Positions 6,547 through 25,631 of a stretch of 25,720 nt of DNA are shown here, piece by piece; within the stretch, counting starts at the first letter, position 1, and each line of letters starts with the position of its first letter. Position numbers and translations under genes: made by a program. The notes beneath the pieces were generated by a model that saw only the letters and a program-made list of their open reading frames with translations, made no database searches and was not told the origin of the DNA. The DNA is from a virus, in IMG/VR virus record IMGVR_UViG_3300007734_000516, positions 1-25,720 of that record; one strand, written 5' to 3'.

Positions 6547-6777
6547 ATGAACTTAGAGGTAGACCTTTTTGGCAATAAGCTGGAATCCCCAGCACCCCCG
6601 CCCCCGCCTGTCCCTGTTGCCAAGAAGCGTTTCCGCCCACCGGCACTGCCGTCCTACTTCCCTACCGATGCGGCCTCGCCTCCCGTCAATCTGCTTTCCA
6701 CTACCCGCCGCTACCGCGTAGTAAAGCAGTCCCCCTGCCTCACCTACATCTACCACGATGACGACGATTCCTTCTAG
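6547..6777 (+). CDS. Small Pro-rich protein
   Basis: A 76-aa protein starting MNLEVDLFGNKLES, with a polyproline run at residues 16-22 and an acidic end (HDDDDSF). It begins 5 bases after the GIY-YIG stop on the same strand, so it probably belongs to the same operon. No family recognised. It converges with, and overlaps by 4 bases, the stop of the minus-strand gene. The N-terminal DLFGN pattern is seen in small phage proteins, but that is a weak hint. Confidence is moderate because the sequence is short and biased. Confidence 0.5.
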   Translation: MNLEVDLFGNKLESPAPPPPPVPVAKKRFRPPALPSYFPTDAASPPVNLLSTTRRYRVVKQSPCLTYIYHDDDDSF

Positions 6778-7469
6778 CCCTCGTATGGGCCAGGACTGGT
6801 ATCCCCCATCAGACTCTTCTTCAAAGCCATCTTCTGTTGCTTAATCGTCTCCAGCTTCGCTTCCGCCCCTTCCTCCGCTACTACTTCCTCTGCTAGCTGT
6901 ACGCTACACCCGCTGCTACCCCCGCCCAAGCTAGCATCCCCAATATCCATCTTCCCGTTCAGCTTCGCGATGATCTCTTCCTTCGACATCGCCCCAAAGT
7001 TGTTCACCTGGATATTCACGTTGCTCCCAGCCGTCGCGCTGGCCCCTGCCAACGCCCGCTTCTTGTCAATCGTCACTGCCATCGCAAAGGGCAGCGTATG
7101 CATAGGCATATCGTCAATATCCCTAATCATCCGGTCTATCACCAGATCCGTCAACCGATCCAGCTTCCCCATCAACCGCTCGTTAAACTTTTCCACACTC
7201 ATACCAACAATCCTCTGCATGATTCGTTTGTCATCATTTGTCATATAATCCAGCACCGGGCTTTGCCTCAAGCCAATTCCATTACCTTTCAACGTAGCCG
7301 TTGCCACATCCCTAACCAACCGCTTCACCCCATACGTCCTCTTCCTCGTCGTCTCCTTCTTCCACCGATTCGGCTTCCTTGCCTTCTTCGGCTCCGCCCC
7401 AACCGCCCCCGCCAACCCACCAGCCACCCCAGCCGACCCACCACTTCCACCCACCTCCTGCTCGCTCAT
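6774..7469 (-). CDS. DNA-packaging/terminase-small-like candidate (231 aa)
   Basis: A 231-aa protein with three parts: a Gly/Ala-rich N-terminus; a basic patch (KKARKPNRWKKETTRKR, residues 28-44); and a long helical region holding a TLPFAMAVTIDKKRAL stretch. That helical segment resembles regions found in proteins that phage annotation often calls small terminase subunits or HTH packaging proteins. It overlaps the upstream gene by 4 bases (ATGA at 7466-7469), so the two are one operon. On the minus strand it lies upstream of TerL, separated by the inserted plus-strand operon. A small terminase is an inference from position, basic patch and pattern; a generic structural or DNA-binding protein is the alternative. 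Codon third positions match this frame better than the overlapping plus-strand frames. Confidence 0.55.
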   Translation of the reverse strand: MSEQEVGGSGGSAGVAGGLAGAVGAEPKKARKPNRWKKETTRKRTYGVKRLVRDVATATLKGNGIGLRQSPVLDYMTNDDKRIMQRIVGMSVEKFNERLMGKLDRLTDLVIDRMIRDIDDMPMHTLPFAMAVTIDKKRALAGASATAGSNVNIQVNNFGAMSKEEIIAKLNGKMDIGDASLGGGSSGCSVQLAEEVVAEEGAEAKLETIKQQKMALKKSLMGDTSPGPYEG

Positions 7470-8554
7470 ACATTCACCTTCTCCTTTATCCCATCCACCT
7501 TATTCATCCAGGCTTCCGCCTCCTTCCTCATCTTATCCATAAATCCCTCCCCTCCATCAACCTCCCTTCTTACAACTTCTTCAGCCTCCTCCTTCCCCTC
7601 AATCGCACCAGCCTCCACATCCTCCTCTTTCACCTTCTCCTCTTCCCTTAAACTCCCTCCAATAAATCCCACAGGCTTTACTGTCATATCTCCAACCCCC
7701 GGCTGCTTCTCCAATTCCACCCTCCCCACAATCTCATATTCCGCATCCCGCCCACACCCGCTCACCCACACCCGCTTCACCTTCACCACCTCCCCATTAA
7801 ACAAGTTGTACCCACTCACCGCACACTTCGCCCACTCCTCCGTCCCTCCCACTATCCTCACCCGCGCGTACTCCTTGTTCCGACAGATCCCCCCTATCAC
7901 CCCTTCCCCAACCTCCACCCACCCACTCACATCCCCACTCACTTTAATCAATTTTTCAGGAGCCTCGCTTATAGCTTGACTAAAACCACTTTTCCCCTCC
8001 AGCTCCCCCCTAGGGGAGCGAAATTGTAAGCTTCGCTTTGTTTCTTTTAGCGTACTCCCTACTCCGCTCTCGCACCCCAAAGAGCCACTACTAGCTTCTA
8101 CAAGCTTCACGCCTCCACCACTGGCTTCATCTTGCTTCAGTTCAACTGACTGCAAAATTTCTACTCCTACAGCGGATCTATTGTAATTGTCAGTCAGGGC
8201 CAGGGCTTTGACCCCCCCCTCCCCTACGGGGGCAGACGCGGAGCGCGGGGGGGGGAGCGGGGCGGATGAAGGAACGGCCAGGACGGCCGGAACAACCGAC
8301 GCGGATGAAGGAACGACCGATTGTAGTGCTTGACCTGATACGGTTGGCAGTATCGGCAAAGTTGATACAACGAGAGACAATGGAAGCCGGTGCAAGCGAC
8401 AAAATCGGATTGCATCACTTTGCCGGCCGACACCGCATAGGTACGAAATCCAAGCTTTCTTGCCCCTCAAGCGCTGCCGAGTGGGGCTTTCGCGCCTTGG
8501 CTGAGGCGGTGGACGAATCGGCGAAGCAAGGGAAGGCGCAGGGGATGAGGGCAT
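7466..8554 (-). CDS. Hypothetical protein with beta-rich core and acidic tail; 5' part doubtful
   Basis: Residues from about 190 on look like a genuine protein: a beta-rich core (WVEVGEGVIGG, YARVRIVGGTEEWAKC, EYEIVGRVELEKQ) then a Glu/Lys helical C-terminus (about 300-362). The stop overlaps the next start by 4 bases, which supports translation at this end. The first about 110 residues are less convincing: Pro/Arg/Ser-rich, rich in alternative frames (a Cys-rich minus frame at 8224-8433 and a plus-strand frame ending at 8556 look at least as coding-like), and broken by a run of nine G (8247-8255) and eight C (8212-8219). The true start may lie anywhere between about 8150 and 8554, or the N-terminus may need a frameshift. 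No family recognised. Confidence 0.5.
   Translation of the reverse strand: MPSSPAPSLASPIRPPPQPRRESPTRQRLRGKKAWISYLCGVGRQSDAIRFCRLHRLPLSLVVSTLPILPTVSGQALQSVVPSSASVVPAVLAVPSSAPLPPPRSASAPVGEGGVKALALTDNYNRSAVGVEILQSVELKQDEASGGGVKLVEASSGSLGCESGVGSTLKETKRSLQFRSPRGELEGKSGFSQAISEAPEKLIKVSGDVSGWVEVGEGVIGGICRNKEYARVRIVGGTEEWAKCAVSGYNLFNGEVVKVKRVWVSGCGRDAEYEIVGRVELEKQPGVGDMTVKPVGFIGGSLREEEKVKEEDVEAGAIEGKEEAEEVVRREVDGGEGFMDKMRKEAEAWMNKVDGIKEKVNV
8212..8320 (-). repeat. Homopolymer and 13-codon duplication tract in a coding region
   Basis: An 8-base C run (8212-8219), a short hairpin (CCCCTACGGGG), a 9-base G run (8247-8255), and two copies of GCGGATGAAGGAACG at 8262-8276 and 8301-8315 (39-bp spacing, in frame, 13 codons). 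Such runs slip easily in replication, in sequencing and in translation. It lies inside the uncertain 5' half of the minus-strand gene at 7466-8554. Confidence 0.7.
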
Positions 8555-9046: not shown

Positions 9047-9675
9047 TCACAATTTCATCACTAATGGAAAGTGTCGGCGGCCTTTCCGCTCCTTCTAAAA
9101 TGCCTTGTTTTGGCTATTCAATACCTGCGGCACGGTGCAAGATCGGGCGGAAAATGCGAAAAGTGGCGGGTAGCATTTGCAGCATATGCTATGCCTTGAA
9201 AGGCCGGTATGCTTTCCCTAATGTCTCGAATGCCTTGGAACGGAGATTTCAGAAGATTAGCGGCAAATCATGGGTTCGCGACATGATTGCCGTAATTTCT
9301 CGCGTTGAAGTCAGCGGGTATTTCCGCTGGCACGACGCCGGGGATTTGCAAAGCGTGGCGCATCTAAAACGCATCGTGGCAATTTGCCAAGGCACACCAC
9401 AAATCAGACATTGGCTTCCAACGCGCGAGTATACCACCGTCAGGAAATTTTTAGAGCAAGGTGGCGTGATTCCCCCGAATCTCACGATTCGCCTTAGCGC
9501 TCTAATGATTGATGGACCAGCGCCGGAAAGCCTCGCAAAGCGTCTTGGCGTGCAAGTTTCGGGCGCGAGTGCATCCGCTTATTCGTGTCCTGCACCGTCG
9601 CAAGGGAATGTCTGCGGCGATTGTCGGAAATGCTGGAGCAAAGACACTTTTAACGTGTCCTACAAGGTCCACTGA
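9043..9675 (+). CDS. GP88-family phage protein
   Basis: A 210-aa protein matching the pattern of the 'gene product 88' family known from mycobacteriophages and many other phages: a CxxC in SICSICYA (C46, C49), YFRWHDAGDLQS (residues 93-104), LPTREY (125-130), PPNLTIRLSA (144-153), a C182, and a terminal CGDCRKCW cluster (C191, C194, C197). The fixed Cys, His and Asp residues suggest a metal or Fe-S centre, but the function of the family is not known to me. The start overlaps the previous stop (ATGA) and is preceded by AAGGGGGG as Shine-Dalgarno. A strong terminator follows 20 bases after the stop, ending this three-gene operon. Confidence 0.85.
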   Translation: MITISSLMESVGGLSAPSKMPCFGYSIPAARCKIGRKMRKVAGSICSICYALKGRYAFPNVSNALERRFQKISGKSWVRDMIAVISRVEVSGYFRWHDAGDLQSVAHLKRIVAICQGTPQIRHWLPTREYTTVRKFLEQGGVIPPNLTIRLSALMIDGPAPESLAKRLGVQVSGASASAYSCPAPSQGNVCGDCRKCWSKDTFNVSYKVH

Positions 9676-9695
9676 AATTTCCCTTCGCTCCCATC

Positions 9696-9726
9696 GCCCT
9701 TCCCCTAATCCGGGAAGGGCTTTTTT
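9696..9726 (+). terminator. Rho-independent terminator after GP88 gene
   Basis: Perfect 9-bp stem GCCCTTCCC (9696-9704) / GGGAAGGGC (9712-9720), 7-base loop, then TTTTTT at 9721-9726. Confidence 0.93.
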
Positions 9727-9751
9727 ATGTCCATTTTTTTTCGGGTGCGAT

Positions 9752-9966
9752 GGCCAGGGCGCCAGGGCGAGGCAAGGCGAGGCAAGGCGAGGTCGGGCGA
9801 GGCGGGGCGAGGTCGGGCGAGGCGGGGCGAGGTCGGGCGAGGCGAGGCGAGGCAAGGGCAGGGCGAGGCGAGGCAGGGCAGGGCGAGGCGAGGCGAGGCG
9901 AGGCGGGGCGAGGCGGGGCGAGGTCGGGCGTGGATGGGCGAGGCGAGGCGAGGCAAGGGCGAGATC
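9752..9966 (+). repeat. G-rich GGCGAGG array
   Basis: About 215 bases built from imperfect units such as GGGCGAGGC, GGGCGAGGTC and GGCAAGGC. G runs of two to four recur on the plus strand, which fits G-quadruplex-forming DNA or RNA. Long ORFs here exist only because the period is a multiple of three or lacks stops; they are low-complexity and not credible genes. It is the first part of a 736-bp gene-free stretch (9676-10411). Confidence 0.85.
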
Positions 9967-10012
9967 GGGCCGGCCAGCGCGGCGCGGCCCAGTTGGCCGG
10001 CGCGGCCTCACC

Positions 10013-10307
10013 GCTTGGCTTGACCGGCTTGACCCAGCCGCTTGACCGCTTGATCGGCTTGACCCGTTTGATCGGCTTGATCCGCTTGATCGGCTTGATC
10101 GGCTTGATCGGCTTTGATCGGCTTGATCGGCTTTGATCGGCTTGATCGGCTTTGATCGGCTTGATCGGCTTGATCGGCTTGATCGGCTTGATCGGCTTGA
10201 TCGGCTTGATCGGCTTGATCGGCTTTGATCGGCTTTGATCGGCTTGATCGGCTTTGATCGGCTTGATCGGCTTGATCGGCTTGATCGGGTCGACCGAGCT
10301 TGACCGC
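10013..10307 (+). repeat. 9-bp tandem array, unit CTTGATCGG
   Basis: About 25 copies of TTGATC in a 9-bp period, with occasional 10-bp units carrying an extra T and edge units of TTGACC. Each unit has a GATC. The unit looks like the -35 box of the promoter immediately to its right (TTGACC at 10328). There are no spacers, so this is a minisatellite, not a CRISPR array. A degenerate copy of the same layout lies at 11335-11545. Confidence 0.92.
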
Positions 10308-10327
10308 AAATAAATAATAATAGACGC

Positions 10328-10356
10328 TTGACCCAACTCACCTAGTGTGCATTCTC
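10328..10356 (+). promoter_or_regulatory. Promoter P1, TTGACC-17-ATTCTC
   Basis: -35 TTGACC (10328-10333), 17-bp spacer, -10-like ATTCTC (10351-10356), preceded by an AT-rich UP-like stretch (10308-10321). The same -35, spacer length and -10 occur at 11568-11596, and a close form at 14673-14701. It drives the ORF at 10412. Confidence 0.7.
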
Positions 10357-10366
10357 CCTCTCATCA

Positions 10367-10411
10367 GCTCCCATTCCGGGAGCATCAACTCAGCGAAAAC
10401 TTAGCGAAATT
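10367..10411 (+). promoter_or_regulatory. 5' leader: hairpin plus CAGCGAAA units
   Basis: A perfect 6-bp hairpin GCTCCC-attcc-GGGAGC (10367-10383) followed by CAGCGAAAAC and TAGCGAAAT (10391-10410) right before the ATG at 10412. No Shine-Dalgarno motif. Confidence 0.6.
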
Positions 10412-10699
10412 ATGAACAACATCTCCTCTTCCTCCGCCTTGGTGTTCTGGACTGCGCCAAAATCATTAGCCAAGTTGGCCGACAGCGGCAGCAGCCTCCT
10501 TAAGCCGGGCAGAAACCTTTCATCTTGGCACATAACCAAGATCGCGCCCTCCCTTTTCAGGGCTGGCCATTTTTCTCTGACAGGGCATGGAGATGCACTG
10601 GACGCTCAAATTAACAATATCCCAACCGGGCGCACGCCCGGACGGGCACTCCGGAATTTCCGCCGAAAGCTGCGGAAATCGCCGATCGCTTTCGCATGA
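10412..10699 (+). CDS. Orphan small basic protein (95 aa), single-gene unit
   Basis: ATG at 10412 downstream of promoter P1 and the CAGCGAAA leader; the stop is 21 bases before a strong terminator. It therefore sits alone in its own transcription unit. The protein starts MNNISSSSALVFWTAPKSL, is Ser-rich, then ends basic (RNFRRKLRKSPIAFA). No family recognised. The reading frame is not strongly distinguished by codon use and an opposing ORF (10520-10780) exists, so the region could instead carry a structured RNA. The signals at both ends favour a real transcript. Confidence 0.45.
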   Translation: MNNISSSSALVFWTAPKSLAKLADSGSSLLKPGRNLSSWHITKIAPSLFRAGHFSLTGHGDALDAQINNIPTGRTPGRALRNFRRKLRKSPIAFA

Positions 10700-11290: not shown

Positions 11291-11319
11291 CCCACTCCTT
11301 CACCGGAGTGGGCTTTTTT
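11291..11319 (+). terminator. Rho-independent terminator
   Basis: Perfect 8-bp stem CCCACTCC (11291-11298) / GGAGTGGG (11305-11312), 6-base loop, then C and TTTTTT to 11319. Confidence 0.93.
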
Positions 11320-11334
11320 GTGCCGGTTTGCCGG

Positions 11335-11545
11335 CATCGATTGGCCGAGGCAGGGCGATGGGCAGGATCGGGGCAGGATCAGGGCGCAAATGGGCAGGAA
11401 ACGGCACAAGCGGGGCCAACAGGGGCGACGCTCGACCGCTTGACCGCTTGGCTTGACCGCTTGGCTTGAGCCAGCCGCACCGCTTGACCGCTTGATCCGC
11501 TCGACCGGCCCACTGCTTGATCGGCTTGACCGCTTAACGCCTTAA
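11335..11545 (+). repeat. Second, degenerate G-rich plus TTGACCGC array
   Basis: It follows the same order as 9752-10307: first a G-rich part with GGGCAGGATC/GGGGCAGG units (about 11340-11430), then CTTGACCGC, CTTGGCTTGACCGC and CTTGATCGG units (about 11430-11545), then an AAATAAAATAAG stretch. It fills the gene-free gap 11285-11659 with the promoter P2. Confidence 0.8.
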
Positions 11546-11567
11546 ATAAAATAAGACGTTATGGTGC

Positions 11568-11596
11568 TTGACCTATCTCATCAACTGAGCATTCTC
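11568..11596 (+). promoter_or_regulatory. Promoter P2, TTGACC-17-ATTCTC
   Basis: -35 TTGACC (11568-11573), 17-bp spacer, ATTCTC (11591-11596). It matches P1 at both boxes and spacing, and the two spacers share the CTCA core. Internally TGACCTATCTC and TGAGCATTCTC form a direct repeat 17 bases apart. Confidence 0.75.
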
Positions 11597-11630
11597 ACTC
11601 GTATCGACCCGCTTTTGGGCCGTAACAAAC

Positions 11631-11659
11631 CAGCTAAAAACAGCTAAAAAACAGCAAAT
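11631..11659 (+). repeat. CAGCTAAAAA x2 plus CAGCAAAT leader
   Basis: Two perfect CAGCTAAAAA units (11631-11650) followed by ACAGCAAAT directly before the ATG at 11660. No Shine-Dalgarno motif. Confidence 0.75.
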
Positions 11660-11941
11660 ATGAATACATACTGCCTCGATCGTTACTATCGGATCACGAT
11701 CACGAATTTGATCCTTAAATCTCAACCGGAGGGCCATCCAGTCGAGCTGGCACTTGACTCCATGGATTTCTCGGCTCCCACCTACGAGGACATCATTACC
11801 GAGATCCGCGGTCAGGTGGACGCTGACACGGTGCAAGTCGTTGACCGCTTGGATTGGGATGGCAGGGGAACCGTGACGGTCACCGGATTCGGCTTGGGCG
11901 AGGATGGTGAGGAGTTTTGCGTCGTCATCCGCTGCTACTAA
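11660..11941 (+). CDS. Small phage protein (93 aa)
   Basis: A 93-aa protein with an alternating beta pattern (YYRITITNLILKS, GTVTVTGFGLG, EEFCVVIRCY) and an acidic middle. No family recognised. It is the first gene behind promoter P2 and the CAGC leader, and the next gene starts 4 bases after its stop. The first residues include MNTYCLDRYYRITITN. Reading on the plus strand is favoured over a same-length minus ORF by its position behind the promoter. Confidence 0.7.
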   Translation: MNTYCLDRYYRITITNLILKSQPEGHPVELALDSMDFSAPTYEDIITEIRGQVDADTVQVVDRLDWDGRGTVTVTGFGLGEDGEEFCVVIRCY

Positions 11942-13438: not shown

Positions 13439-13693
13439 ATGCCTTCACCAATAACTTTTCAAATCCTTATCCGCCGTAAGCGCCGCGCTCTCGGTTTAAC
13501 CCAGGCCCAGCTTGCAGCTATGCTCGACATCTCCCACAGGACTTTAGACTCTTGGGAGCGGTCAGAAATAAACCACAAGCCGCACATCCTGACCCAGGAG
13601 GCCGTCTGGGCGCGGATAGCTGCCTTCGATGCCCCTCCCGTCCCGCTTGACCCGCTTGATCCAGCTCTCTCAGCAGCTCCAGCAACGCCCTAA
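13439..13693 (+). CDS. XRE-family (Cro/CI-type) DNA-binding protein
   Basis: An 84-aa protein with a helix-turn-helix of the Cro/C1 type at about residues 7-48 (LIRRKRRALGLTQAQLAAML, ISHRTLDSWERSE). Short proteins like this are typical phage regulators, acting on operators in the early region. The C-terminal 20 residues are unstructured Pro-rich (VPLDPLDPALSAAP), encoded by a CGCTTGACCCGCTTGATCC stretch resembling the intergenic minisatellite. It lies 27 bases after the methyltransferase stop. The targets are not known; the TTGACC/TGACC promoter repeats are candidates. Confidence 0.85.
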   Translation: MPSPITFQILIRRKRRALGLTQAQLAAMLDISHRTLDSWERSEINHKPHILTQEAVWARIAAFDAPPVPLDPLDPALSAAPATP

Positions 13694-14672: not shown

Positions 14673-14701
14673 TTGACCTATCTCCAACAAGTGACCTATC
14701 T
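14673..14701 (+). promoter_or_regulatory. Promoter P3, TTGACC-17-CTATCT, repeat-containing
   Basis: -35 TTGACC (14673-14678), 17-bp spacer, CTATCT at 14696-14701. TGACCTATCTCC occurs twice, 18 bases apart (14674-14685 and 14692-14703). The ATG at 14708 is only 7 bases past the -10, so the transcript would be leaderless or nearly so. Confidence 0.6.
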
Positions 14702-14707
14702 CCTCTC

Positions 14708-14929
14708 ATGCCCACTTTGGGCACGTTCAGCAACCTCATCAAACCAGCTATGATTATCGATCCGCCAGAAATCGCTCTGACACCAGAGCAGATAGAGTCA
14801 GACATCCAGGCCGAGCAGGCTTGGTACGAAGCCCGTCGCCTCACCGAGGGTGACGTTGACGCCTTGGCCGAGCAAGACGCGGAAGGCCGCAACTATCGCC
14901 GGGGAATCAAGGGAGGCCGTCATGATTAA
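14708..14929 (+). CDS. Small acidic phage protein (73 aa), possibly leaderless
   Basis: ATG at 14708, 73 aa, starting MPTLGTFSNLIKPAMIIDPP, then an acidic helical region (ALTPEQIESDIQAEQAWYEARRLTE-type, residues 23-48) and a basic end (GRNYRRGIKGGRHD). No family recognised. It follows promoter P3 so closely that the mRNA may lack a leader. It overlaps the next start by 8 bases. An opposing minus ORF (14569-14892) is rejected because this gene opens the clear operon to 16976. Confidence 0.72.
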   Translation: MPTLGTFSNLIKPAMIIDPPEIALTPEQIESDIQAEQAWYEARRLTEGDVDALAEQDAEGRNYRRGIKGGRHD

Positions 14930-17424: not shown

Positions 17425-17507
17425 GCGCATTATTCTGCCTCATTATTTCAGTCTTGGCCTTCTGCGTAGGTTATATGATGGGCTACCTATCGAGAGATCT
17501 AAAATGA
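17421..17507 (+). CDS. 28-aa single-pass membrane microprotein
   Basis: ATG at 17421 and stop TGA 17505-17507, overlapping both neighbours by ATGA. Sequence begins MSALFCLIISVLAFCVG and is followed by YMMGYLSRDLK, with one hydrophobic helix (about residues 3-22) and a basic end. The two exact overlaps in a chain of coupled genes support real translation; it is too short for standard gene callers. Function is unknown; small membrane peptides of phages can alter host membrane or act in exclusion, which is only a suggestion. Confidence 0.6.
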   Translation: MSALFCLIISVLAFCVGYMMGYLSRDLK

Positions 17508-18082
17508 AACACTTAAACTTAACGCCAAAAGAATTTTGCTCTGCCACCAACGCTTGCCGAGAAGGCCGAGTATTTTGCGAGAAATACAACACGATGGCAG
17601 AGGTTTGGGACGCGTGTAAGAAAGCAGAGTGGCTCCTCTGGATTTTAAGGGCTATCGACGCTCCAGCGAATGAAAAGAACGAGCGACTGTTCGCAGTTTG
17701 GTGCGCTCGAAACACTCCAATGCACGACGGACGCACGACGGGCGCATTGCTCACTGATCCACGCAGTGTGGCAGCTCTTGAGGTTGCCGAGCTATTTGCG
17801 TACGGGAATGCAACTAAGGAGGAGTTGGCTGCGGCATCGGCTGCGGCACGGGCTGCGGCATGGGATGCGGCTGCGGATGCGGCTGCGGATGCGGCATCGG
17901 CTGCGGCATCGGCTGCGGCACGGGCTGCGGCACGGGCTGCGGCATGGGATGCGGCATCGGCTGCGGCATGGGCTGCGGCACGGGCTGCGGCACGGGCTGC
18001 GGCATGGGATGCGGCTGCGGATGCGGCTGCGGATGCTCAGGCAAATCAATTTCGCACAATGATCAGTAATCCATTCAAATGA
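17504..18082 (+). CDS. Ala-rich repeat protein with immunity-like N-terminal domain
   Basis: A 192-aa protein in two parts. Residues 1-115 (MKHLNLTPKEFCSATNACRE, AEWLLWILRAI, RLFAVWCARNTP, LTDPRSVAALEVAELFAYGN) resemble a family of 'putative immunity' proteins common in phage and metagenomic genomes. Residues 108-180 are a tandem repeat of AAARAAAWDAA and AADAAADAA, encoded by GCTGCGGCNNGG units at about 17828-18036; the DNA is repetitive in codons as well. The tail NQFRTMISNPFK is ordinary. It overlaps the microprotein (ATGA) and the next gene (ATGA). The length of the repeat probably varies between related phages. What it is immune to, if anything, is not visible. Confidence 0.68.
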   Translation: MKHLNLTPKEFCSATNACREGRVFCEKYNTMAEVWDACKKAEWLLWILRAIDAPANEKNERLFAVWCARNTPMHDGRTTGALLTDPRSVAALEVAELFAYGNATKEELAAASAAARAAAWDAAADAAADAASAAASAAARAAARAAAWDAASAAAWAAARAAARAAAWDAAADAAADAQANQFRTMISNPFK

Positions 18083-20674: not shown

Positions 20675-23600
20675 TTAAAAGGTAGAGTAGTTGGCGGGCT
20701 GGGGTTGTTGAGTCATTTGGTCAAAAACTCCTTGTGTGCCAAAGCGGGCAACGCGAGCTAAAAAGTCTGGAGTGCCTTGTCGAGAAGAAGGATTCAGGAA
20801 AGAACGGTTTTGAACAAGAGGGCTTGCGCCTATTCTTCTACCAAGGAAGGGAACCCCCAAGAATGCTCCACCCGCTATTGCGCTTCCCGTCTGCCCAAAA
20901 GTTAACCCTCCAGTTGTTGCCCCAACACCCGCTATTCCCAACATTCTAGCAGCATCATGAATTCCAAATTTCAAGGTGCTGTTAAAAGGATCTCTGACGA
21001 CGTCAGGCATACCTTGTGCGATCAAAGCAAGTTTCTTGAGACTGCCGGTAAACCCAGCTCCGTCTTCAAGCATCATGCCAAGAACCTTTGCATCAAATGA
21101 ATTTCTCGCTTCATTTGTGCCCGCTCTTATTGCGTAAAGTTTTGCGGTATTTTCCTTAGCAATTCTTAACTCAGAAATAAGACCAACTTTGCCTTGAGAT
21201 ACTGCTAATGCTTCCATTTTCTGGAAAGCGTTCTCTGCATTTAATTGAGCGGCCTTCGCTTCGCTCCTTATCCTGGAATCTCCGCTTTCGTTTGCTTGTC
21301 GATAAAGCCTTCTGGTGTCTGAACTAAAGTCTTTCCATTCTTTTAATAAACTAGGTGCTGTGCCGCCTAATGTAGAAAAATTCCTGTAGGCGTCCCCATT
21401 TAAAAGAAGCTGACCGTTAAAATTATCAGAAGATAAATCTTTTCCCTTAAAACCAGCGATTTCTGAAGCAATTTGTTTTAATTGAGGCTGATTCTTATTT
21501 GAAAGATATTGCCGTAAAGCATTTTGCCCTCCTGACGCTTGAACTAAAATAGGCCCAACGCCATTTTGTTGAAACATAGATGGATCAATCAAAAGATTCA
21601 GATCGTTGGCACTGGTTACTAGGTCATGCGCCCCTTGGCTGGTTCTGCGCTCAAATTGTTTCGCTGCATAACGACCTCGATCTACCATTCCTTGAGCGCC
21701 TATTCCGGCCACCCCAGAAGCTCCAGCTCGAAGAACGTCCCCTGCGCTAGCCATTTCCTTTTTGTCCATTGCTTTCTCAAAAACTTCCCCAGCAGCAGAA
21801 CCCACCCCAATCAAAGCCGCATTACGAGCCGTTTGCCCTGATTTAATAGGGATAAGGTTTGTAAGACCGCCCCTAACCGCTGATGGCATAGAAACCTTTC
21901 CGTTGTTGTTTAAATATTGGCTGATTGCGTCAGCGGTAAGTCCGCCAGCAAATCTAGTGAACGGGCCTCCATACATTGACAGGGCATTTATTACGGTGGG
22001 AGGTATTTGATTAAGAAGAGGAGGGGCATTTCTTGCTTCTTCTTTACGCAACAATGATTGATTCTCAAACCCCATTTCCTCCATTCTTCCCAACCCTTGT
22101 ATTTGCGCCGCTAACTGTTCACGGGTCTTGTCGGTTAAATTCCTTTCACTTAAATTTTTTTGTATCTTTTCCATGGACGTTCCAAAGGGGAAATAAAGTT
22201 CTTCTCCTTTGTATTTTACCCTATAACCAATAGGCGTTTTCGATTCATCGCCAATGCCCTCGGACAATTGAGTTTCTACATTCATATTGGTTTTGTTTGG
22301 ACTGGCCGCAGCGGCTTGTGCGTCGCTACCCCCTGCAAGACCTAGCCCGCCCACGGCTAACGCCCCAAGCCCCATCTCCCTTGCCCTGCTAGGCGATCCT
22401 ATACCGGGATAATTCGCAGCTTCATTAATAACTTCTTGCTGAGTAGGAAGAGATTGCTCAGGGCCACGGCCCAATTTCTCATTGATCCTAGCCCGTTCCC
22501 TCAAGGCGTTTCCTCGTTCCGTATCAAGCCGGCTCAATTGAGTTTGCTCAGGGCTACCTGTAAAACCTGTGCTTTCTTGGTTACCTAAACGGTTCTGCTC
22601 AATGATTTGCCTAGCTTCCTCAACAATTTGCTTTTGCTCCTCAAGACGAGCTTTTTGAAAATCTTGGCTTCTTAAACGATTAGCGACATCTTCACTTCTT
22701 ACTTTTTGCTCAAACGCTAAAATCTCTTTTCTTTTTAAATCTTTAAAAGCTTCGACTGAACCCTCAGCTGATTTAACAGGGACTGGACGAAGTCCTCTTT
22801 CAATTTCATCTGGAGTGTAAACCAGCGGGGCATCTCTGAGAATTGCCTCTTGTTCCTGCCGAGTGGATGGACGGTATTCTTCACTAGACGGAAGCGAAAG
22901 CTTTCCGCCTTTTCTAAAAGATTCGACTGAATCCTTGGCTGATTTAACAGAGACTGGACGAAGTCCTCTTTCAATTTCATCTGGAGTATAAACCAGCGGG
23001 GCATCTCTAAGAATTGCTTCTTGTTCCTGCCGAGAAGATGGACGGTATTCTTCACTAGACGGAAGCGAAAGCTTCCCACCTTTTCTAAAAGATTCGGCTG
23101 AATCCTTGGCTGATTTAATTAGGCTAGGACTGTCAATTTCGGTTTGAGTGTAAGGGGCGTCTCTAAGGATCGCTTCCGTTTCCTGCCGAGTGGATGGACG
23201 AACCAATTCTGCTTCTTCTCTAGAACGTTGCCTAAGCTCACGGAAAAGAGCGCGGACGGAAGGATCGTCTTGTTCATACGCCGAAAGCTCATTAACCTTT
23301 TTGCCTTTAATCTTAGACCACAGTTCTTTTGAGACTTTTAATAGTCCTTTGCTGGCTTCCCCGCTGCCTCCAATAATAGCCCCTAACGCGCCTCCGCCTA
23401 AGATTGAGCTAGCGTATTCTTCAACGGTAGGAACCCTCTTATCGTCCACCGCCGTTTCGACTGTCTTGGCGCCAGCCCCAATGCTACCGCCTATTACAGC
23501 GTTTGCAGCCGCTGCCCCACCTATTTGAGCCAAACGACCTCCACTCCCAGCCACCGCTTTAGCAATAGGAGCAGCAACTTTCCCCAAAGTAGCGCCTGGC

Positions 23601-23959
23601 AGTAAATTGATCAACGCCGCCGAAAGCATTTCCCCTGGAGCATACTTGGCTCGATCTCCACGTTCTATCTGCCTCTGCTGAGACTTGTAATTGCCGTATG
23701 CCCCCGCCGCCGGTGCAACCGCAAAGTAGCCCGGCCCCATCATCCCTCCAATCCCTTGCCCTGCCAAACTGATGCCAGCTTCCGTTGCAATGTCTCCAGC
23801 AATGTTACCAGCGGACTCCTTAAACGAACGTTCTTGTTTAACAGGATTGGCTTGATCCATGCCGTCTAACACATTCGCAATTTCATTTGCGGAATTGTAG
23901 TCTTTGGCTTCCGCCGCCTTTTTAAGGCCGTCCAACAATTGTTCTCGGCTGTAGCTCAT
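20675..23959 (-). CDS. Large internal virion/DNA-ejection-type protein with 57-aa repeats
   Basis: A 1094-aa protein from ATG 23959 (MSYSREQLLDGLKKAAEAKD); a longer frame from 24040 overlaps the upstream gene, so it is not used. Residues about 40-200 are Gly/Ala-rich with weakly hydrophobic helices (MMGPGYFAVAPAAGAYGNY, LPGATLGKVAAPIAKAVAGS). Residues 245-400 carry about 2.5 copies of a 57-aa unit (RPSTRQEQEAILRDAPLVYT, KSAKDSVESFRKGGKLSLPS, EEYRPS). The rest is helical, with further Gly/Ala-rich patches. Long proteins of this make-up near the end of a late operon are typical of internal virion proteins that leave the capsid with the DNA. No lysozyme or transglycosylase motif was seen. The identification is from size, composition and place. 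Confidence 0.62.
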   Translation of the reverse strand: MSYSREQLLDGLKKAAEAKDYNSANEIANVLDGMDQANPVKQERSFKESAGNIAGDIATEAGISLAGQGIGGMMGPGYFAVAPAAGAYGNYKSQQRQIERGDRAKYAPGEMLSAALINLLPGATLGKVAAPIAKAVAGSGGRLAQIGGAAAANAVIGGSIGAGAKTVETAVDDKRVPTVEEYASSILGGGALGAIIGGSGEASKGLLKVSKELWSKIKGKKVNELSAYEQDDPSVRALFRELRQRSREEAELVRPSTRQETEAILRDAPYTQTEIDSPSLIKSAKDSAESFRKGGKLSLPSSEEYRPSSRQEQEAILRDAPLVYTPDEIERGLRPVSVKSAKDSVESFRKGGKLSLPSSEEYRPSTRQEQEAILRDAPLVYTPDEIERGLRPVPVKSAEGSVEAFKDLKRKEILAFEQKVRSEDVANRLRSQDFQKARLEEQKQIVEEARQIIEQNRLGNQESTGFTGSPEQTQLSRLDTERGNALRERARINEKLGRGPEQSLPTQQEVINEAANYPGIGSPSRAREMGLGALAVGGLGLAGGSDAQAAAASPNKTNMNVETQLSEGIGDESKTPIGYRVKYKGEELYFPFGTSMEKIQKNLSERNLTDKTREQLAAQIQGLGRMEEMGFENQSLLRKEEARNAPPLLNQIPPTVINALSMYGGPFTRFAGGLTADAISQYLNNNGKVSMPSAVRGGLTNLIPIKSGQTARNAALIGVGSAAGEVFEKAMDKKEMASAGDVLRAGASGVAGIGAQGMVDRGRYAAKQFERRTSQGAHDLVTSANDLNLLIDPSMFQQNGVGPILVQASGGQNALRQYLSNKNQPQLKQIASEIAGFKGKDLSSDNFNGQLLLNGDAYRNFSTLGGTAPSLLKEWKDFSSDTRRLYRQANESGDSRIRSEAKAAQLNAENAFQKMEALAVSQGKVGLISELRIAKENTAKLYAIRAGTNEARNSFDAKVLGMMLEDGAGFTGSLKKLALIAQGMPDVVRDPFNSTLKFGIHDAARMLGIAGVGATTGGLTFGQTGSAIAGGAFLGVPFLGRRIGASPLVQNRSFLNPSSRQGTPDFLARVARFGTQGVFDQMTQQPQPANYSTF
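22771..23220 (-). repeat. 171-bp tandem repeat inside the internal virion gene
   Basis: ATTTAACAG(A/G)GACTGGACG recurs 171 bases apart (22771 and 22942), giving 57-codon in-frame units; a third diverged unit lies to 23220. The first two copies are nearly identical at DNA level, so the duplication is recent. Confidence 0.88.
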
Positions 23960-23975
23960 GTTATTAATTAGCGAC

Positions 23976-25631
23976 TTATCGCGTTGGAGACAAATAGCGT
24001 TGAGCTGATGAACTAAGGCTTGGCGTCGTCGCCCCATCAAGATTTATCATCTTGGCTGCGGGTCTAACTTCTCCAGTAATTGGATTAAAGTCTAAATCAA
24101 TAACTTTTCCATTGGGGTTATTGACCTTCTCTAGATTAATTTTATGCTGGGTAAGTATTTCGCTATCAGTCCTGTTGATTGAAGGGTTAAGCTTTCTGTA
24201 ATTATCTATTACATCTTCATCTGAACGTTGATTTAACAAATATTCCCCAATTTCTTTTTCAGACTTTCCTTCGACTAACATACTGTTTGATTTTACTATT
24301 TTCCCGAAATGTCTTTCTAGGTTAGACAATATTTTTATTAGATTTTCTTTTTCGCTTAACGTCTTCCATTCAAGACTTCCTTTAGACGCTTCTAATGCTT
24401 CAATTTCAAACTTTGCTATTTGGCCTAAACTTACTCCACCTTTTTTCAAATCTCGTAACGCTTGAAACGCTACGTTTGATTTAATTGTGGCTAATGCAGC
24501 ATCAACGTCTGTTTTTCTTAACAAGAAATTCCATGGTGTGCTTTTTTTAACAAGTGTTTTTGCTCTATCTATTGCTGTTAAAGCAACACGCGAATTGTCG
24601 GCAAATGCATTTGATTGCGCCACATCTTGGTCTTGTTTTGCTTTTACCGCAGCATCGACTTTATCTTGAGCGGCAACACGTTTTGCATAATCAGAGTCTA
24701 ACGTTCTATATTTAACTCCTCCGCGCCAAGCAACATTATAAATAGCTCCCGTTTCTGGATCCGTTTCTTTATAATCAGCGGGATCTTTGATTGATTTTGA
24801 TTGAGCAGTTTGTTCCGCAATTGCTCGCCTTGTCATTGCAGCCTCAAGGTTTGCAGGACTAAGGATCTGTCCTGTTGCTAAAAAGGCGTTTAAAGTTTCT
24901 TGAACATAAGGGTTTTTTAACTTTGCCGCAAAGTCTTCTTGAGCCGCTGGAGAAAGGACTCCGCCACCACGGGTAGGAACGGCGGAGTTAGGACTGCCGC
25001 CAGCATACGTTGGGGTTTCGGCTTGGTTATACTTAGGAACTTGAAATTGAGATAGTATTTCCTTGGACAGCACTCCAGTGCCTGGCGCGGTAATATTTGC
25101 ATTGCCGTAGCTAACCAACGATGGATCAGAAACAATTTTGCTGCGATCAATTATTGGGGCGTTTGGCGTTCTAAATTCGTTTAACGAAGTCAGCGTCTGC
25201 TCTTGAGCCGCCTCTTTTTGCGCTCTATTTTGGGCATCTGCGACTTCCTGATTAAAACGACTTGTTTGAGCTGCTCTTAGGGCGTTCTGCGAATCAACTT
25301 CAGCTTTCCCCTGAGCCATCTTTGCCATCATTATGTTGTTTTCCACCAGCGTTCCCATCCGGGCATACTTATCGCGCTGGCTTTCAAACGTACTTCCCTT
25401 CAAAAACTGCTTTAACGACTCATCGTCCTTGAACCCAAACTGCTCTTTGTTGGCAGTCAGCATTGATTCCATCGCCTTGTTCTTGGCGTTAAAGGAACTC
25501 TCCTCCTCCCTCGTCTTAAAGAACTGATTGATGTTATTATTCAGGTTAGAATAATACGCATCTTGCCCTCGGTTCATCCCCTGAGCAATTAGTTGGCCGC
25601 TGATATCTTGGACTCCAGGATTGTAAGGCAT
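23976..25631 (-). CDS. Internal virion-type structural protein (551 aa)
   Basis: A 551-aa protein starting MPYNPGVQDISGQLIAQGMN. Mostly helical and charged with Gln/Asn/Ala-rich stretches (residues 95-140: QNALRAAQTSRFNQEVADAQ, NRAQKEAAQEQ), a Pro/Gly linker (180-225), then a long helical part (330-500). No catalytic motif, no membrane segment. It lies 16 bases upstream of the 1094-aa gene in the same direction, so both are probably co-expressed late structural proteins. The C-terminus (LSSSAQRYLSPTR) is ordinary. Like the next gene, it resembles podovirus ejection or core proteins only by place and composition. Confidence 0.6.
   Translation of the reverse strand: MPYNPGVQDISGQLIAQGMNRGQDAYYSNLNNNINQFFKTREEESSFNAKNKAMESMLTANKEQFGFKDDESLKQFLKGSTFESQRDKYARMGTLVENNIMMAKMAQGKAEVDSQNALRAAQTSRFNQEVADAQNRAQKEAAQEQTLTSLNEFRTPNAPIIDRSKIVSDPSLVSYGNANITAPGTGVLSKEILSQFQVPKYNQAETPTYAGGSPNSAVPTRGGGVLSPAAQEDFAAKLKNPYVQETLNAFLATGQILSPANLEAAMTRRAIAEQTAQSKSIKDPADYKETDPETGAIYNVAWRGGVKYRTLDSDYAKRVAAQDKVDAAVKAKQDQDVAQSNAFADNSRVALTAIDRAKTLVKKSTPWNFLLRKTDVDAALATIKSNVAFQALRDLKKGGVSLGQIAKFEIEALEASKGSLEWKTLSEKENLIKILSNLERHFGKIVKSNSMLVEGKSEKEIGEYLLNQRSDEDVIDNYRKLNPSINRTDSEILTQHKINLEKVNNPNGKVIDLDFNPITGEVRPAAKMINLDGATTPSLSSSAQRYLSPTR

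Follow-up and report, generated by a model that had tools for sequence, protein, structure and literature searches.

Short asymmetric sites called stoperators are known from Cluster A mycobacteriophages (L5 type), where they keep one orientation relative to transcription and lie in intergenic regions and at the early promoter (PMC9283540; PMC6550527). The Omega heptads of pSM19035 form runs of 7-10 consecutive short, non-palindromic repeats that overlap promoters; the single sites are weak, and the repeats are bound by an RHH protein (PMC9499535). The locus compared with these systems here lies in an IMG/VR virus record that was analysed as a whole (25,720 bases, called the window below), and no description of such arrays was found in the literature. 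The original prediction had described region 9752-10307 as a control region composed of a G-rich array, about 25 copies of a 9-bp unit, and a promoter.

To the left of this region lies a GP88-family gene (PF17338), followed by a hairpin resembling an intrinsic terminator and then by the arrays. The reading of the region as a control element heading a transcription unit is supported. Terminator and arrays are followed by a promoter-like site and the ATG at 10412. The region 9696-10412, named module 1, contains the following features:

9696-9720, + strand: intrinsic-terminator-like hairpin closing the upstream GP88 gene (9-bp stem, then a T run)
9766-9963, + strand: G-rich tandem array of the GGCGAGGC type (198 bp; 5/20-bp period; TRF score 215)
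9966-10004 (about), + strand: GC-rich inverted repeat between the G-rich and TTGAYC arrays (10-bp outer stem)
10018-10305, + strand: array m1, about 30 same-strand TTGAYC cores, mostly CTTGATCGG or CTTTGATCGG (TRF and core counts)
10290-10318, + strand: sigma-70-like candidate TCGACC-N17-AATAAT, made up of the array end plus AT-rich AAATAAATAATAATAG (9/12 match)
10328-10356, + strand: promoter-like element TTGACC-N17-ATTCTC, common to module 2 and the relative L181
10367-10383, + strand: leader hairpin GCTCCC-ATTCC-GGGAGC, preceding an A-rich leader and the ATG

The existence of both arrays is confirmed, with the G-rich one measuring 198 bp rather than the predicted 215 or so; it is built of a GGCGA or 20-bp unit of the GGCGAGG type and has a G4Hunter mean of 1.16. 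The GC-rich inverted repeat (about 9966-10004) folds no better than shuffled sequences (z-score not significant), and a search of Rfam returned no RNA family. The candidate TCGACC-N17-AATAAT is weak, since hits of this kind are no more numerous than in shuffles, and the promoter-like elements as a whole match only weakly. Within 10018-10305, 31 cores lie within one mismatch of TTGACC, whereas 2000 shuffles average 1.4 and never exceed 6. The longer motif GCTTGAYCSG occurs 23 times in the window, always on the + strand, where 0.16 occurrences are expected. TRF calls a 9-bp unit in 27.1 copies at 10040-10288 (score 402), and this run is nearly uniform, with a higher-order period of 102 bp. Spacing was measured over a slightly longer stretch with 32 cores, 25 of them exactly TTGATC; neighbouring cores are 9 bp apart in 21 cases and 10 bp apart in 7. 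The unit, predicted to be 9 bp long, alternates between 9 and 10 bp, and the 5' end of the array, which holds TTGACC copies, is degenerate. The copy number of 25 is provisional: the record was assembled from a metagenome, and the array is not crossed by any second contig found for the same species. A long antisense ORF (9502-10341) runs through m1 and stays open only because the array unit has no stop codon in those frames; a coding role was rejected, as some other unit types have stops.

The layout of module 1 is repeated at 11291-11662, a repetition absent from the original prediction. The two modules share the order of terminator, G-rich stretch, CTTGACC array, AT-rich stretch, TTGACC-N17-ATTCTC, hairpin, A-rich leader and ATG. 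Leader hairpins analogous to that of module 1 are present in module 2 and near 14673, where a reduced third module lies:

11291-11312, + strand: terminator-like hairpin opening module 2
11343-11428, + strand: G-rich stretch, shorter and degenerate (G4Hunter mean 0.99)
11429-11535, + strand: array m2, degenerate CTTGACC/CTTGATC copies (TRF and core counts)
11568-11596, + strand: promoter-like element TTGACC-N17-ATTCTC, with a hairpin at 11606-11621
14673-14720, + strand: reduced module 3, a doubled TTGACCTATCTC element and hairpin without a long array

Two array-like units (CGCTTGACCCGCTTGATC) were also noticed at 13642-13662, inside the 3' end of an XRE gene (codons PLDPLDPA). This phage has other tandem repeats, located in genes (TRF). 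A 12-bp unit is repeated 16.8 times at 17827-18027, in ORF 17504-18082, which encodes an Ala-rich (AARAAAWDAA-type) protein matching phrog_18326, and a 171-bp unit is repeated 2.2 times at 22744-23118, inside the large minus-strand ORF 20675-24040. The segment 7001-8000, with the minus-strand ORFs 6774-7469 and 7466-8554, combines a very strong GC skew (-0.63) with C-rich short repeats.

Related loci were gathered by terminase searches. The longest close records of the clade, from tailed phages, reach about 36.6 kb, and the G002 and G001 records have matching ends. At the DNA level, neither the window nor the array region matched any named phage, and terminase identity to such phages is at most 32%. 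Among the 163 related loci scanned, clusters of at least four cores were found in this clade only, always outside recognised genes, on one strand and at an equivalent place; all arrays of the clade lie on the early-gene strand. As the arrays are related by descent, few independent events stand behind this same-strand rule. Copy number and unit differ between relatives, and two members of the same clade, G001 and G006, carry no such array, which indicates that it is dispensable. L181 is about 86-95% identical to the window in most shared genes and has the same module layout and place, with a similar G-rich array, a similar but altered GC-rich inverted repeat and an identical AT-rich AAATAAATAATAATAG; its array consists of irregularly spaced, unhomogenised CTTGACC. 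Unit lengths follow lineages, with 9 bp in the window, 13 bp in L045, L047 and L056 (AATTTGACC), 15 bp in L083 and L084 (GATTTGATC), and 14.5 bp (14-15 bp) in L067, L078 and L086 (ATTTTACCC). The array, its repetition within the genome, and the conservation of its place, strand and core over four unit types are results computed here.

Further early intergenic regions of the relatives hold a second array (L083/L084 and L067) or smaller groups of sites, as in the 13-bp-unit phages. The second array of L083 was observed directly upstream of an XRE homologue. In L083 m2 and in the arrays named type D (TTTACCC) the repeats come close to a start codon; the putative link of type D to TTGAYC is one of resemblance only. 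A small same-orientation core array was seen between convergent genes at G002 30449-30505 (also G003 16042 and G004 15374), a position that fits poorly with a simple promoter role. Exact-unit matches in other viral contigs were discarded, as those inspected look like unrelated in-gene repeats. A scan of IMG/VR for spaced TTTGACC triples gave 119 hits versus 80 for the pattern written backwards (one control only), and 25 versus 5 outside open frames (80 loci of each, L182-L261 versus L318-L397). Non-coding triples would thereby be about fivefold more frequent than the control pattern. Many of these non-coding loci belong to unrelated phages, and the excess is not used as support because the triples have no consistent orientation to genes.

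One explanation is a stoperator-like roadblock, in which asymmetric repressor sites would stop rightward RNA polymerase and shield the next cassette from read-through. The asymmetric core in a single orientation, the position of arrays after terminators, the one between convergent genes (G002 30449), and the proximity of the L083 m2 and type D arrays to a start codon are consistent with it, as known stoperators are likewise asymmetric sites whose orientation follows transcription (PMC9283540; PMC6550527). However, the sites are clustered at 2-4 loci with few isolated copies instead of being dispersed, none of the proteins examined was recognised as a cognate repressor or an integrase, and the XRE gene does not track the arrays. 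A roadblock is considered unlikely.

The conservation within the arrays concerns the core. In an unanchored hexamer count, the TTGACC-type hexamer is among the top recurring ones, and often the first, in nearly every array, with the variant TTGCCC ranking first in one type D array. With columns anchored on the core, its bases carry 1-2 bits, a value raised in part by this anchoring itself, and most spacer columns outside the uniform run of the window carry about 0.03-0.9. The core varies chiefly by C5 to T and T2 to C, and C6 almost never changes. The conserved core and degenerate spacers suggest that the uniform 25-copy run of the window is a local expansion of an older site array; in this way, the most recent growth of a functional array that is itself older can show up as a conspicuous tandem repeat. 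If the array were instead a neutral minisatellite, grown by slippage from a promoter -35 region and having no function of its own, then the nearly uniform 9-bp run with its 102-bp period, the difference in copy number and unit even from the close relative L181, and the other tandem repeats, in genes of the phage, would be expected. Yet slippage would not keep the core while spacers diverge, nor would it pick an identical core, strand and place in several lineages, and a purely neutral origin of the array is judged rather improbable.

The sigma-70 -35 box is TTGaca, with TTG the strongest part and A preferred at position 6. TTGACC has five of the six bases of TTGACA, and the adjoining promoter-like element contains the same hexamer, which would suit the predicted array of -35 boxes serving host RNA polymerase as decoy or loading sites. 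The pattern of variation is unlike the sigma-70 profile: position 6 is almost always C and never optimised to A, T2 is changed to C in many copies, and type D cores (TTTACC) are without G3. Such a decoy is thus very improbable. The prediction had also drawn attention to a GATC in each copy, but a GATC/Dam role does not withstand comparison, since TTGATC, so frequent in the window (25/32), is found in only 0-2 cores in most relatives; apart from the expansion in the window itself, L083 alone has GATC commonly. The G-quadruplex half likewise fails as a general part. L181 has G-rich repeats, L083 has them in another form, and the 13-bp-unit phages lack them; G002 and G003 have no G-rich array (G4Hunter about -0.2 to -0.1). 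Reading the other strand as primase sites (GGTC) was rejected as well, TTGATC and TTTACC being without GGTC.

It was also considered that the region is a replication origin, with TTGAYC sites as initiator iterons and the adjoining AT-rich AAATAAATAATAATA as the unwinding element. Same-strand direct repeats followed by an AT-rich stretch occur in the window and L181. None of the phage's proteins was recognised as a DNA polymerase or large initiator, which would leave it in need of a cis element recruiting the host replisome. Against an origin stand the two or more arrays per genome, the spacings of 9, 13, 14.5 and 15 bp that give no consistent 10.5-bp helical phasing, the AT-rich stretch that is absent in other unit types, and the lack of an adjacent initiator gene. 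The suggested GC-skew check gave no signal at the array, and the extremes of skew lie elsewhere, though gene direction confounds this measure. The likeliest of the rival readings are, in falling order, the origin, which is itself unlikely, the stoperator-like roadblock and the neutral repeat.

A protein reading the arrays was sought among phage genes. No recognised gene co-occurs with the arrays, and when shared ORFs were screened, none among the matches listed was convincingly specific to array-bearing phages. The XRE protein, suggested for footprinting in the original prediction, was rejected as the binder by its co-occurrence across relatives: its gene is present in the array-less G001 and G006 and was not found in the array-bearing G002, G003 and G004. 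The double-HTH protein, the second one named, was found only in the closest relative and was set aside too. As no array-tracking phage gene was found, a host factor may be the binder. The sole genome hit, L099 (JAURGE010000073.1), has an identical terminase and is binned in an alphaproteobacterial MAG at 1.8x coverage; it is probably a phage contig that strayed into the bin and no evidence of the host, and no such arrays were found in that MAG.

The view of the region as a gene-exchange junction, close to the recombination hotspot of the original prediction, gained support from pairwise alignments. The module is about 67-82% conserved between non-homologous flanking genes in G002/G004, G002/G003, window/G022, L067/L078 and L067/L086, and the G003/G004 alignment has the same pattern. 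In G002 versus G004, homology ends upstream at 26969, returns over the module at 27745-28264 (77%), is lost over the next gene, and is back at 28794 (90%). The first gene 3' of the array differs in all non-identical genomes examined. Homology over the module and not over its flanks makes it a conserved junction between replaced genes; this replacement on both sides, like the degeneracy of the spacers, is computed here. The phage has recombination genes of its own (an exonuclease and RusA), and the module may cause exchange by giving them shared sequence, or may merely survive it.

It is proposed, with about an even chance of being right, that the locus is a direct-repeat operator array that controls swappable early-gene cassettes and was locally expanded to a minisatellite. 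Region 9752-10307 would then lie at the 5' end of an exchangeable early-gene cassette as its control region, and its working part would be the asymmetric TTGAYC sites, all pointing along early transcription. The putative reader, a sequence-specific DNA-binding protein encoded by the host or coming from the phage, would be gathered beside the promoter by many weak adjacent sites and may control early transcription to the right, in the manner of direct-repeat operators. Recent slippage or unequal crossing-over within an older irregular array may have produced the 25 uniform CTTGATCGG copies, and the G-rich array and GC palindrome would be lineage-specific additions after the terminator. We infer protein binding, an effect on transcription and an aid of the module to cassette exchange. 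A broader and more doubtful possibility is a new family of operator arrays that are genome-polar and re-expand rapidly. In a widespread clade of uncultivated phages they would mark and control exchangeable accessory-gene cassettes, with a host factor as their reader and with concerted evolution renewing the unit while the core stays. The arrays offer a comparative handle on phage operator arrays, with one core in four units and spacings, at a fixed place and strand, and with the surrounding genes replaced. Should a host factor bind the sites, they would show plug-in early control of newly acquired genes and minisatellite growth tuning the number of sites.

Compared with Cluster A stoperators, the likeness lies in asymmetric sites with an orientation fixed to transcription; here, they are tandem-packed at 2-4 loci, and no cognate repressor was recognised. 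The Omega heptads are contiguous 7-bp units that may alternate in orientation, whereas the phage arrays are one-way with 9-15-bp spacing, and neither a ParA nor an RHH protein turned up in the phage proteins scanned. Plasmid and phage iteron origins share with them the direct repeats and, in some members, the neighbouring AT-rich stretch. The phage arrays differ in having no helical register, more than one array per genome, no adjacent initiator gene and an AT-rich part that is not conserved. Bacterial minisatellites (VNTR) are similar in the uniform 9-bp tandem run that differs between close relatives; here, however, older degenerate copies keep the core while their spacers drift, and they do so in several lineages.
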